Made by a program: the position numbers and the translations under genes. Under the pieces are notes generated by a model. That model made no database searches. It was not told where the DNA came from and saw only the letters and a list, made by a program, of their open reading frames with translations. From Candidatus Nitrosocosmicus sp. (lineage in GTDB: Archaea > Thermoproteota > Nitrososphaeria > Nitrososphaerales > Nitrososphaeraceae), in contig JARFXS010000014.1 in NCBI GenBank assembly GCA_029194465.1, positions 1 to 46,890 of the forward strand: 46,890 nucleotides of DNA. The letters are read 5' to 3'. Within the stretch, counting starts at the first letter, position 1. The number at the start of each line of letters is the position of its first letter. This document shows positions 24,159 through 32,200 of the stretch, one piece after another.

Positions 24159-25388
24159 TTGTACATAGATTTGTCCGGAGAAAAAATAGTAAATATTGAG
24201 AACGTGCTGGTACTTCAAGGTGGTGGATCACTTGGTGCTTTTGGGTGTGGAGTGTATAAGGCATTGGTAAAACACAATCTGGATTTGGATTTGATTGCTG
24301 GGACTTCAATCGGTGGGATTAATGCAGTCATTATCGCAGGCAGCCGAAATAAAGACAGGCCTGATCAATTATTAGAGGAGTTCTGGCTAGAGCTTTCTGA
24401 AAATTTTGTTAACAAGGATAAATTTTTCGATTTTTCTAGACCAAATCTAATGAAGCAATTCTATGAAAATTTTGTCTATCCACTTCACAAGAATGATATG
24501 ATCGCAAATTATGTAGAAATGAAGAAGGGACAACAGGTCAAAATCAAACAGCTAGAATCATTCTACAGCTCTGCCGTATTTGGAAATGAAAAGTTTTTCA
24601 AACCTAGGTGGTTTTCTGAATATGCGGCTTCGGATCCCGAATATTTTACACCAATGAAATGGACTTACCTCTATGATCATAAACCCTTGATTAAGACATT
24701 GGATAAATATATTGATTATGACAAGTTAAGACCAGGTGTAGATAGTAAACCGCGTCTAATTTTGACCGCGGTGAATGTTCTGAATTCTAAAGCTTTAATA
24801 TTTGACAGTTTCAAGCAACAAATAGAGCCAAAGCACATATTAGCTACTTCCGCCTACCCACTTTACAATTTTCCATGGATAGAGGTTGACAAAGGTGTTT
24901 TTGCCTGGGATGGTGGCCTTTTGAGTAACACTCCACTTAGAGAGGTGTTAGACGCATCACCTGTCATAGATAAGAAGATATTTCTAGTAGAAAATTATCC
25001 GAAGGCGGTTGACGCGTTGCCCAGTAATATAGCTGAAGTACATCATAGGGCCAGAGACATTATTTTTTCAGACAAAACTGAGCACAATATCAAAATGTCC
25101 AAGGTAATTACACGTTATTTAGACTTCATTGAAGAACTTTACCAAATTTTTGACGATAACGCTGACAAATTACAATTAGATAAGAATACCTTAAGTAAAA
25201 TTCGTCGAAAATATAAGAAATATCATGAGGATCATGGAGCCGAGATAAAAGAAATATACTATATTTCACGCGATGAATTGTACCCTCATATCTTTGAAAA
25301 TGCAGATTTCTCTCCTGACACTGTCAAGGAATTAATAAAAGCCGGAGAGGACAAAGCCGATAAGGTCATACAGGCTCATAAGCGTTAG
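24159..25388 (+). CDS. patatin-like phospholipase
   Basis: The protein has 409 residues, starting with TTG at 24159 (another TTG lies four codons later). The oxyanion loop is GGGSLG (21-26), the nucleophile elbow GTSIGG (48-53, Ser50), and the second catalytic residue Asp251 lies in the motif DGG followed by LLSNTPL. These form the Ser-Asp dyad of patatin lipases, which cleave acyl esters. The C-terminal ~140 residues are a charged helical extension seen in larger bacterial and archaeal patatin proteins. No signal peptide: it probably acts in the cytoplasm or at the membrane. Archaeal membranes have ether lipids, so the natural substrate is unclear. Single gene. Confidence 0.93.
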   Translation: MYIDLSGEKIVNIENVLVLQGGGSLGAFGCGVYKALVKHNLDLDLIAGTSIGGINAVIIAGSRNKDRPDQLLEEFWLELSENFVNKDKFFDFSRPNLMKQFYENFVYPLHKNDMIANYVEMKKGQQVKIKQLESFYSSAVFGNEKFFKPRWFSEYAASDPEYFTPMKWTYLYDHKPLIKTLDKYIDYDKLRPGVDSKPRLILTAVNVLNSKALIFDSFKQQIEPKHILATSAYPLYNFPWIEVDKGVFAWDGGLLSNTPLREVLDASPVIDKKIFLVENYPKAVDALPSNIAEVHHRARDIIFSDKTEHNIKMSKVITRYLDFIEELYQIFDDNADKLQLDKNTLSKIRRKYKKYHEDHGAEIKEIYYISRDELYPHIFENADFSPDTVKELIKAGEDKADKVIQAHKR

Positions 25389-26511: not shown

Positions 26512-28041
26512 TTAGCAAACAATGTCATAAGCATCAGTAACTATCCTTTGATAAATTGAATTGTTCAGATCAATCCTGTAATAATCTAATTTATCAGGAT
26601 CGTACTTTTGTACAATTTCAATAATTTCGCTTTTCTTTTTTCTCTGAGATATGACATCCCTATGAGCGTAACCGGTGACATAACTATAATCATTTTTAAT
26701 AGCTTCGCCTAAAAATTTTATCCGTAAGTAGTGACCACCGGTACCTCCCCAATAACCTTCCAGGATGCTGACACCTTCCAAATACACAGTGTTCATCGAT
26801 CCCTTGTTCACATCTACCGTACCCGGGCGCAATTCATAATTTTCCAAAGGACCACCTTTTGCATAACCTATAATATCACCGGTTCTGTTGTTCATCCTAA
26901 GTGTTACCAAGATAGAAGCTCTATCTGCGATTGTTTTTCTGAAGTAATCTTCACTTTGCCGCATCAATGTGGAAACCCGACTGTTAATATCTAGAAGGAT
27001 CTTAACCGTGTTCTCATCAACTTTCCCATTTTGGCCTTCCGTAACAAAAATTAATCTGGTACCTCTTTTGGAATCTTTTAATCCTAATTCTTTATTCCAT
27101 GATTCCTTAAAGTACGCCACGTTATCATAAAAATTTTTCCTAAATTCAGTAGGTATATTTGACATAATATAATCAAACATCTCCTTTTCTTCTACCATAA
27201 GGTTATCAAAAAATTTCACAGAATTTTTATTAATCACGGAAGGATGCCATCCCAACGCATGAGCATTACGTCTTGCGATATCCCTAGCGTGTTCATAATT
27301 TCCAAGCGCGTATCCAGCTATTCGCTCAGATACTGAAAGAAACCATCCTAAACTTCGAAAACGTTCCCTTGTTTTTATATCACTAGTGGAAATTCCAGCT
27401 TCAACGAATAATTCATCAATCTTCTGATTCGCATATTGCTCAATTTCCCCTTTGAATGGATAAGCCGTCCTATGAATCAGGATCATTACTAAGTCTATAT
27501 TCAGATTTGCCTTTGCGATAAATTCCCTAATTTTTGGATCATGTCTAATGAAAAATTCAACAGAATCCTCATTAGGTTTATCAAATTCCTTAAGTGGATC
27601 ATAGTCATGAAATAACGCAGCTACAAATAAATAACTAGTTTCTTCCTGAGATATTTTGAAATTTTCCATTTTGTTAATCCCAGAAATTGATAATAGAGTA
27701 AAGTAAACAGCTTCTAGTTCATGTTGAATATTATGATAACCATAATAATCGGTGCCTAAGCCTTTTTTTGAGAATTCAGATATGGTGTGACGCAGGATAT
27801 CCTTTATCCATCTGTCCTCAAAGCCCAAAGATTTGCCCAAATCTATAATACTATTCTTGAGGTTTGATTCGGCTGTTTGTCCTTTGTGAAATTGTAGCCA
27901 CCAAGGAAATAATTTTATTCTATTATAGAATTCAAATCCCAATAGGGTTAGCCTGCCAGGCAACTTATCTGTCGTCAATCCATTATTATTGTTTAGATCA
28001 TCCTTTTCACTATCTGATGTAAATCTCGATGATCTAACCAC
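26512..28041 (-). CDS. HD-domain phosphohydrolase fused to a GNAT-like domain
   Basis: The protein has 509 residues and a GTG start at 28041. Residues ~65-320 are helical with an HD-type metal site: His103 and His107 in YHNIQHELE, His145-Asp146 in FHDYDP, and later acidic/His residues (Asp183, His190). The YHNxxH opening resembles cyclic-nucleotide phosphodiesterase-like HD proteins. From about 345 a different fold begins: a helix, strand ASILVTLRMN, strand IGYAKGG, then TVYLEGVSILEGYWGGTGGHYLR (418-440) and a helix, matching beta4 and the acyl-CoA pyrophosphate loop of GNAT acetyltransferases. No signal or membrane helix. An HD-GNAT fusion is unusual; a joint role, for example nucleotide signal turnover coupled to acetylation, is only speculation. 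Confidence 0.75.
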   Translation of the reverse strand: MVRSSRFTSDSEKDDLNNNNGLTTDKLPGRLTLLGFEFYNRIKLFPWWLQFHKGQTAESNLKNSIIDLGKSLGFEDRWIKDILRHTISEFSKKGLGTDYYGYHNIQHELEAVYFTLLSISGINKMENFKISQEETSYLFVAALFHDYDPLKEFDKPNEDSVEFFIRHDPKIREFIAKANLNIDLVMILIHRTAYPFKGEIEQYANQKIDELFVEAGISTSDIKTRERFRSLGWFLSVSERIAGYALGNYEHARDIARRNAHALGWHPSVINKNSVKFFDNLMVEEKEMFDYIMSNIPTEFRKNFYDNVAYFKESWNKELGLKDSKRGTRLIFVTEGQNGKVDENTVKILLDINSRVSTLMRQSEDYFRKTIADRASILVTLRMNNRTGDIIGYAKGGPLENYELRPGTVDVNKGSMNTVYLEGVSILEGYWGGTGGHYLRIKFLGEAIKNDYSYVTGYAHRDVISQRKKKSEIIEIVQKYDPDKLDYYRIDLNNSIYQRIVTDAYDIVC

Positions 28042-28561: not shown

Positions 28562-28951
28562 TCAAATATTGGAATTAAATGTTGCAATTAGCCAAGTAAT
28601 TCCAAATGGGTCCAATATTTTACCCAATTTATCCACCTCGTACATGTGTGTTGGGGTTTGAATTGATTTGCAACCTGCTTTCAATGCTTTATCATAAGTA
28701 ATTTCAACATCTCTAACATATATCCACAAGGAAAGAGAACAGGGGTGACTACTCTTCCGATTTTCCTCCAACATAATATAAGTATCACCGATTTTAACTT
28801 CAGCATAAAATCCTTTTTCTTCCTCTATTCGTTTAACAACTACTGCATTAAAGACCAATTCTGAAAATTTTATGAATTCTGATACATTTCCAATTACCAA
28901 ATATGGATTTACCGTATGATAACCCGGAGGGAATGGGTCCAATTCTCTCAT
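28562..28951 (-). CDS. VOC (glyoxalase/bleomycin-resistance) family protein, PhnB-like
   Basis: The protein has 129 residues. The paired beta-alpha-beta-beta-beta pattern of the VOC fold is clear: TVNPYLVIGNVSEFIKFSE opens module 1, IMLEENR closes it, SLWIYVRDVEITYDKALKAG opens module 2, and KLGKILDPFGITWLIAT closes it with the typical DPFG-x-W signature seen in PhnB-like members. Such proteins bind a metal and act as isomerases, dioxygenases or antibiotic-binding proteins; the substrate is unknown. Confidence 0.88.
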   Translation of the reverse strand: MRELDPFPPGYHTVNPYLVIGNVSEFIKFSELVFNAVVVKRIEEEKGFYAEVKIGDTYIMLEENRKSSHPCSLSLWIYVRDVEITYDKALKAGCKSIQTPTHMYEVDKLGKILDPFGITWLIATFNSNI

Positions 28952-29216: not shown

Positions 29217-32200
29217 TTGAACCTCAGGCTTGCCAATGTTATTACTGAACCACTTGCTAATAGCAAACTTCCCATTGCTATGGGAATATCGATAATAGTG
29301 ATTGTCATTATTTCGCTTTTGATGACTCGCCAATTATTGGAGTACAATCACATAACCGGGAATATCATGTTCATTATGACTATTGTTGTATGTTATGGAA
29401 TCGGTTCTTTTGTTCTCCTGAGCTTCGCACACAGGGTAAGTAAAGAATTGAGGAGTAAATCACGCCTAAGCAACATTATGCACTGGACGGTGATTATTGT
29501 ACAATTTGGAATTTTGATAACTTTGGTATTCATGTTAGTTTTCGGTAATCCAGAATATGTCTTATCTAAGTCGATATTTGCAGCTAGTTCAATACTTGCC
29601 ACGGTAATCATGTTGGTAATAACTTTTAAATTTTTTTCATGGTATAGGGCCAGTAAGTTCAAAAATCCCATAGTTTTGTTCTATGCTCTTGCTGCATTAA
29701 CACTTGCTTGTTCTATTTTTGAAGACGCCAGTACAAAATTACTAATGGTCCAAATCATTTATGATGAATCTATACCAGACAACCAGATAATAGGATCATC
29801 ATTTCAATACAAGGGGTCAGAGAAATATGATGGACAAGTTGTATTTGTAGAAACAAAAACGGATGAAACGGCCTTATTCATAATCCCCAAATCATATTTA
29901 GAATTATACAATTATCTTAACTCTATAATTCTGCCAGTGGGATTTATTTTCAGATGGATAGCCTCTACGATGCTATTGCGGAATGTTTATAAGAAAATTG
30001 GCCCATTTCCAATATATCTTTGGATAATAATATCTCTACCACTTGTACTCTATTTGATTGGTAAGATGCCGGGCTTCTTTTCAGGTGAAAGTCTTGCCGG
30101 GATTGACGAAGCATATCGATACTATTTTCGAGTATTATTTAGAGTGGGAACGATAGCTGGGAACATATTATTTGGTTTAGCGTTCTTCATAGTTGCGAAG
30201 AAATTGAGATCGTCAAAAGTTAGAGATTATCTTATCTTAGCTGGCCTTGGTGATACAATAGTTGGGATTGCTCTTTCTACTTCAGCGATAGAACCAACCT
30301 TCGGCGTTGCTGCACATTCATTAGTCCTTCTTTCCACATATCTCTTTACACTTGGTTTGTATGCTTCGGCTATTACGGTTTCCCAGGAAATGAAGTTACG
30401 ACAATCAATAAGAGACTCAGCCATTGAAGAATCAAAACTTTTATCTAGTATAGGATCTGCACAAATGGTACAAGAAATAGAGAAAAAAGTCTTTGCGGTA
30501 GTCGAAAAGGAAAAAGCGGAATTGACAAGGCATACAGGCTTACAACCGTCATTTACGGACCTAGACACAAGAGAGTATTTGGACACCGTACTTAAAGAGA
30601 TAAAAATAATTCAAAATATTGATGATATTATTTCAAAAAGCAAAAGTATCCTATCTGATTCTAGGGAATTTATTCTGTGCACCAGACCTTCTGGATTAAG
30701 ATTAGCATTTAATAACTATTTTGAAATTTATCAGCAGATCACCGGAAATAGAAAAAACCACCCTGACAATGGAATCAAGATCATAACATCTATTACAAAT
30801 AGTAACGATATCGAAATAGTAAACAAGTTTTTGGAATTAGGAATAAGTATGAAACATGTAAAAAATCTACCCCTATCAACTTTGCTGCATCAGAAAATGA
30901 GATGATTGCAACGATACAAAAACAGAAGGCGGACAAATCCTTCAAAATCTTCTTACAACTAATGAACCAGCATATATTGAGCATTTTAATTCAATTTTTG
31001 ATGAATTGTGGGAAGATGGAATTGATATTAAAATAGGATTAATGATATTGAGACTGGAGTGGACAATGAAGGGATAGAAATAATTCAAAATCCCGAAACG
31101 TTTGAAAATTTATTCTACAGTCTAATCATATCTGCAAAGGGAAGATATTGTTGGAATATTTTCAATAACCAAATGCATTTAGACGTCAAAAAGCATGCTG
31201 GGACCCTTGACCTGATAAGAGAAAGACTAGAAACTAAATCCTTAAATGTAAGAATTTGTCCCTGAGGACAAATTGATTTATCAGACCATAAACGAATTTG
31301 AAGATCAGGTATTTCAGACAGAATCAAAATTAGACTAATGGAACCAAGCATGCAAACCAAAGTGTCAATAGTGGTAATTGATAAGAAATACTCACTCGCA
31401 GTTGAACTAAAAGATGATTCTAAGAATACCGTGGCTGAGGCTATTGGATTAGTAACATATTCTAACAGCAAATCAACGGTATTATCTTATTATTCGATCT
31501 TTGAAAGCTTATGGAAACAAACAGAACTATACAAGCAGTTGAAATTAAACGAGAGGATGCATAAGGAATTTATCAACACAGCTGCACATGAACTGAGGAC
31601 ACCAATTCAGCCAATCCTTGGGGCAGCAGATATTCTCAAAAATAACTCACCTAGTTCGAGGGAAAAGGAGCTTGTAGAAATAGTAAGTCGTAACGCTAGA
31701 AGATTGAAAAAACTTGCTGAGGACATACTCGATGTAACCAAAATGGAAGGATACGCCTTAAACCTGAATATGGAAAAATTTAGAATCAGAGATATCATAC
31801 TCGAGAATATTCACAATTGTGAAGCAAATTTTGAAAAAAGTAAGATTGAAATCAAGTATAATGAAATAGATGACTTACAGATTTTTGCAGACAAGGAGGG
31901 CATTAGTCGAGTTGTCTCAAATTTGATTAACAATTCAACAAAGTTCTTGCCCAGCACAGGAGGCATTATCTTAATCACGGTTAGACTGATAAAGTTCAAA
32001 AATGATGACAAATCCCTTGATATGGTGCAAATAAGTATAACTGACAACGGAACTGGTATAGATAATGAAATACTACCAAAGCTATTTACAAAATTTGCTA
32101 CTAAATCATTTCACGGAATTGGCCTTGGATTGTTTATTTCAAAGAGCATTATAGAGGCGCATGGCGGCAAGATATGGGCCGAGAACAATCAGAAAGGACA

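Follow-up and report, generated by a model that had tools for sequence, protein, structure and literature searches.

An HD-GNAT fusion protein of ammonia-oxidizing archaea with a phosphodiesterase-like N-terminal half

Organization of the gene and its protein

The analyzed window, a stretch of 46,890 nucleotides from contig JARFXS010000014.1 of Candidatus Nitrosocosmicus sp., contains a minus-strand open reading frame of 509 codons with a GTG start (Table 1). A sequence-only reading had proposed that the encoded protein of 509 aa is an HD phosphohydrolase fused to a GNAT-like acyltransferase. The residues on which it relied, His103, His107, His145-Asp146 and the GGTGG stretch (432-436), were located exactly as claimed in the numbering of this protein. 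Searched on its own against Pfam and NCBIfam, the protein gave no usable match to a curated family, and phmmer matches in the PDB to pokeweed antiviral protein were dismissed as chance. When 25 members of the family were scanned singly (E <1, best about 1e-4), PDEase_I matched 15, Acetyltransf_1 matched 13 and HD matched eight of them, and weak matches of some members to the HD and HDIG models were also found. The profile check that had been suggested for both halves was borne out, weakly, by orthologues and gave nothing for the window protein.

Table 1. Position of the fusion gene, its predicted domains and motifs, and one locus of the longer HD paralogue.
Feature	Position	Strand	Basis or remark
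Whole gene, HD (class I PDE-like) - GNAT fusion, 509 aa	26512..28041	-	ORF, orthologues, model, fold search
Residues 1-32, disordered N-terminal tail, poorly conserved	27946..28041	-	pLDDT <50 for residues 1-32
Residues 33-324, all-helical HD domain, class I phosphodiesterase type	27070..27945	-	Model, fold and profile searches, paralogue homology
Y102-H103-N104-x-x-H107-E108; H103 corresponds to catalytic His of PDE5, H107 to metal ligand	27718..27738	-	PDE5 alignment; 97 orthologues
H145-D146-Y-D148-P149, predicted HD metal ligands; Pro replaces outer His of HDxxH	27595..27609	-	PDE5 alignment; 97 orthologues
E239, predicted last metal ligand	27325..27327	-	Asp in 63/97, Glu in 34/97 orthologues; paralogue alignment
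Residues 326-509, GNAT-fold domain	26515..27066	-	Models, fold searches; Acetyltransf_1 in 13/25 members
E422, on or just after strand b4, candidate general base	26776..26778	-	Invariant; thialysine acetyltransferase alignment (weak)
G432-x-x-G435-G436, predicted CoA pyrophosphate loop, start of helix a3	26734..26748	-	Model, conservation
D486-Y487-Y488-R489, invariant signature, last strand	26575..26586	-	Model, conservation
Paralogue of ~800 aa, one locus	G000:C3, about 28586-28861	-	Second uncharacterized family; other loci L032, L033, L034, L037, L038, L039

An AlphaFold2 model of the window protein (25 sequences; pLDDT 78, pTM 0.72) is all-helical at residues 33-324 and shows the element order b1 a1 a2 b2 b3 b4 a3 b5 a4 b6 b7 at residues 330-491. 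The model of a Nitrosopumilus orthologue (53 sequences; pLDDT 88.9, pTM 0.85) displays the identical order, and this is the complete GNAT topology in both. The GNAT-like C-terminal half, which had been expected beyond residue 345, is thus predicted by two models to begin after residue ~326. Neither model contains a membrane segment or an extra sensor domain. In Foldseek searches against the PDB, the C-terminal half matches GCN5, PCAF, RimI and PaiA (E ~1e-4 to 1e-3, target TM-score ~0.6). The helical half of the window model matches RhoPDE, PDE5A and PDE10A (E 5e-4 to 4e-3, target TM-score 0.50-0.58); these phosphodiesterases reach the top 50 with the window model but not with the orthologue model, whose list is filled by GNATs. 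Pfam scans and the fold search revealed only HD/PDE-like features in the N-terminal half, and no CNB, ACT or NADP regulatory domain.

The Foldseek list also contains human malonyl-CoA decarboxylase, aligned over ~350 columns across both domains. The protein would then consist of a helical domain and, behind it, a lyase domain with the GNAT fold. Such a role would suit these archaea, whose carbon-fixation cycle passes through malonyl-CoA. However, the target TM-score of 0.22, the rmsd of about 19 A and a GNAT half in which no invariant His corresponds to that of the decarboxylase make the likeness unconvincing, and the helical half has the full set of HD metal ligands. A decarboxylase-like protein is thus highly improbable.

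The two-domain HD-GNAT protein is real and beyond chance, because full-length orthologues are present in many genomes, with invariant ligands and a GNAT fold.

Phosphodiesterase-like features of the HD half

A total of 97 distinct orthologues were compared. H103, H107, H145 and D146 are invariant among them, as are Y102, D148, R191, T192 and R240, and position 239 is exclusively acidic. At the sequence level the HD-superfamily signature H...HD...D is therefore complete (H107, H145, D146 and D/E239), in agreement with the HD-type metal site that had been predicted for the N-terminal half.

This half can be placed nearest to the class I cyclic-nucleotide phosphodiesterases. A profile of the HD half ranks PDE5 top among PDB sequences with a weak E value (0.017), and hhalign aligns the two over 48 columns (E 1.8e-5), using a PDE5 sequence identical to the PDB entry. 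The alignment pairs H103, H107, H145 and D146 with YHNWRH and HD of PDE5, so that the YHNxxH motif with the catalytic His of class I phosphodiesterases is present, its Y102, H103 and H107 being invariant. The second-shell His of HDxxH is missing, since Pro149, which aligns with the outer His of PDE5, occupies this position in 97/97 orthologues. At the sequence level the similarity is solid only within a stretch of ~48 residues that surrounds the HD motif, and the rest has diverged. Position 239 aligns with the Asp of ADLSVTY in a paralogue of ~800 aa, and this Asp aligns to ACDLSAITKP of PDE5 with low local confidence. The purine-clamp Gln by which PDEs recognize their substrate was not located, as the global alignment to PDE5 failed and the region is not confidently alignable. 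PDEase_I remains below the Pfam cut-off in the family (best E 7.5e-5) and does not match the window protein at all. A whole-genome PDEase_I search found three genomes above the cut-off, each by the ~800 aa paralogue and not by the fusion.

Metal-binding HD sites are usually hydrolytic, and the retention of H103, H107, H145, D146 and D/E239 goes beyond the needs of a non-catalytic fold. Both points speak against an HD half that is purely a sensor or scaffold without turnover, with the GNAT half as the sole enzyme. The loss of the outer His (P149) and the divergence of the PDE core past the HD motif would nevertheless suit such a sensor, and GNATs with regulatory domains are a known class (PMC8556138). 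On balance we consider it unlikely.

Conserved residues of the GNAT half

The residues invariant among the 97 orthologues in the GNAT half are E422, G432, G436, R440, R461, R467 and the D486-Y487-Y488-R489 signature. E422 aligns with the Glu of YLEDLYV in thialysine acetyltransferase, a weak PDB match, and is therefore a candidate base. The GGTGG stretch had been described as a loop typical of GNATs. It is indeed a Gly-rich loop leading into helix a3, but it departs from the consensus: the family loop reads W-G-x-x-G-G, with W431 in place of Q/R and a variable position at T434, and its last Gly (G436) is the sole strict fit to motif A, Q/R-x-x-G-x-G/A. Judged from the 97 orthologues, the predicted CoA loop represents an unusual form of this motif. 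The invariance of both candidate catalytic residue sets in these orthologues speaks for the use of both sites.

Distribution and descent of the fusion

Among 61 relatives, a protein search recovered full-length orthologues with 40-98% identity. When 398 genomes of the phylum were searched with a profile, full-length matches were confined to families of the same order, and with wider samples the families carrying the fusion are f1, f2, f3 and f9 of this order. Scanning ~85,000 species genomes yielded 215 relatives. The best 80 of these 215 belong to the ammonia oxidizers Nitrosocosmicus, Nitrososphaera, Nitrosocaldus, Nitrosopolaris, Nitrosopumilus, Nitrosarchaeum, Nitrosotenuis, Nitrosotalea and Cenarchaeum, along with records titled merely archaeon and one titled bacterium. 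Viral contigs contained no relatives. The survey of HD-GNAT fusions that the sequence-only reading had recommended thus turned up orthologues limited to ammonia-oxidizing lineages.

The fusion and amoA were then compared in 151 genomes of the order, with PF12942 for amoA and the family's own profile for the fusion; strong fusion matches were counted and weaker paralogue matches left out. Both genes are present in 64 genomes, amoA only in 11, the fusion only in one, and neither in 75. The single fusion-only genome (G004) is a fragmented assembly. The 11 amoA-only genomes are G087 and ten Nitrososphaeraceae-like ones, five of which belong to a single genus. Because the genome groups are related, the match between fusion and amoA is a lineage restriction and not an independent correlation. 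The branching of a protein tree (49 rows) broadly tracks the known lineages, which fits vertical descent of the sequences. The family is present in most lineages of ammonia oxidizers and missing from neighboring ones, and it appears to date from the common ancestor of the ammonia oxidizers.

Separate searches with each half covered 200 genomes of the phylum. In these searches the GNAT half was found only within the fusion, and the HD half in the fusion plus once in the ~800 aa paralogue; the HD-GNAT fusion is permanent. Two diverged fusion copies each are present in six Nitrosopumilaceae-like genomes (G184, G202, G214, G226, G288 and G432). In the Nitrosocosmicus-like genome G004, a second copy on contig C149 is split into an HD-half ORF of 415 aa (~893-2137) and a GNAT-half ORF of 160 aa (~2109-2588), and an intact copy lies elsewhere in the genome.

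A second HD family and the gene neighborhoods

The HD domain of the ~800 aa paralogue is homologous to the HD half of the fusion (243 columns, E 2e-19) and shares its HD ligands and the RTxxP motif. Its C-terminus is Methyltransf_4-like instead of GNAT, and its N-terminus has hydrophobic segments, judged by eye to be probably membrane-spanning. The Nitrososphaeraceae-like genomes examined carry this paralogue even where the fusion is missing. One HD clade with two group-transfer-type partners is what would be expected of a control module.

Gene neighborhoods at 80 loci revealed no partner kept across genera and no operon conserved across lineages, so the function is not readable from operons. 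PADLOC matches were judged to be noise, and nothing in them points to an anti-phage system. A patatin-like phospholipase gene lies near the fusion in Nitrosocosmicus (window 24159-25388), and a relative is found a few genes from the fusion in Nitrosotalea; this proximity could be coincidental or reflect a true link. An ORF of 562 aa (window 29217-30905), with a hydrophobic N-terminal half and no Pfam match, adjoins a histidine kinase gene at 31338.

In a rival explanation, the protein is a bifunctional enzyme working in sequence and without signaling. The HD half would remove a phosphate from a metabolite or cut a phosphodiester in it, and the GNAT half would acylate the freed product, perhaps a small molecule, a tRNA base or a cofactor precursor. 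Conservation of both sites, the permanent fusion and models lacking a membrane segment or extra sensor domain are all compatible with it, and GNATs and HD domains are both known in modified-nucleoside and cofactor chemistry. However, no biosynthetic neighbor is conserved, the HD half is closer to signaling phosphodiesterases than to metabolic HD enzymes, and the same HD clade is joined to a different effector in the ~800 aa paralogue. We regard this sequential enzyme as conceivable, though somewhat unlikely.

Cyclic-nucleotide context and proposed function

Class III cyclase domains were found in every ammonia-oxidizer genome tested, from two to 13 in each, and in some of these cyclases the Asn/Arg motif and both metal Asp residues are retained. 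Such domains are lacking in most of the order's other families, with f8 and f10 as exceptions. The presence of class III cyclases in all ammonia oxidizers tested makes a cyclic-nucleotide ligand plausible. CYTH proteins were absent from 61/61 genomes tested, and a CYTH-type cyclase was rejected as the source of the signal. No cNMP-binding domains were detected in any Nitrosopumilaceae-like (f9) genome tested, which would allow for a different cNMP effector. A published study notes class III adenylate cyclases and a CpdA phosphodiesterase family in Thaumarchaeota (PMC9289680). Given CpdA-type homologues in ammonia-oxidizing archaea, the HD domain need not be the cNMP phosphodiesterase.

The two halves together predict that acyl transfer is coupled to the hydrolysis or binding of a nucleotide. 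We tentatively favor, at a little less than an even chance, a vertically inherited two-domain regulator or enzyme specific to ammonia oxidizers, whose PDE-like HD half hydrolyzes or senses a nucleotide and controls acylation. The HD half would bind metals and hydrolyze or sense a nucleotide, cyclic or otherwise; the likeliest is a 3',5'-cyclic one made by the class III cyclases of these archaea. The GNAT half would transfer an acyl group from acyl-CoA to a protein lysine or a small amine. By analogy to MtPat and MsPat, the HD half may govern the GNAT half as in a nucleotide-regulated protein acyltransferase, with a phosphodiesterase-type domain standing where those enzymes have a cNMP-binding domain. 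We only infer that the fusion links hydrolysis to acylation; its HD half might just as well serve in regulation or sensing instead of as a hydrolase. That roughly one in three of the tested Nitrososphaeraceae-like genomes lacks the gene counts against the favored regulator or enzyme.

A more specific version is a single-protein switch, in which the PDE-type domain hydrolyzes or senses the product of a class III cyclase and directly gates acyl-CoA-dependent protein acylation, possibly in central carbon or nitrogen metabolism. Such a switch is rather doubtful at present; if true, it would be a new kind of link from cyclic-nucleotide signaling to protein acylation. Ammonia-oxidizing archaea are among the most abundant organisms of soil and sea and little is known of their sensing and regulation, and the fusion is a candidate read-out for their class III cyclases.

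Comparison with known systems

The fusion shares with class I PDEs (PDEase_I, PF00233; PDE5, PDE10 and RhoPDE) the YHNxxH...HD arrangement and the all-helical fold. It differs from them in the Pro that replaces the His of HDxxH, in a later half that is unalignable in sequence, in matches below the Pfam cut-off and in the attached GNAT. With GNATs (PF00583; GCN5/PCAF, RimI and PaiA) it has in common the full topology, the Glu at b4 and the Gly-rich loop into a3, whereas W-G-x-x-G-G instead of Q/R-x-x-G-x-G/A, the DYYR end and a window protein without a Pfam match set it apart.

The closest parallels in layout are MtPat (Rv0998), MsPat (MSMEG_5458) and ACT-GNAT proteins (PMC8556138), in which an N-terminal regulatory or nucleotide-related domain is likewise followed by a C-terminal GNAT. 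In MtPat and MsPat, binding of cAMP relieves the autoinhibition of the GNAT (PMC8556138). These type III regulated protein acetyltransferases possess a cNMP-binding, ACT or NADP regulatory part, whereas the fusion has an HD phosphodiesterase-type domain, and by domain content it is outside this class. No HD/PDE-GNAT fusion and no description of this family were found in the literature, supplementary tables and most subscription journals aside. Both domain types are known; what sets this protein apart is their combination, its restriction to ammonia oxidizers and its absence from domain databases.
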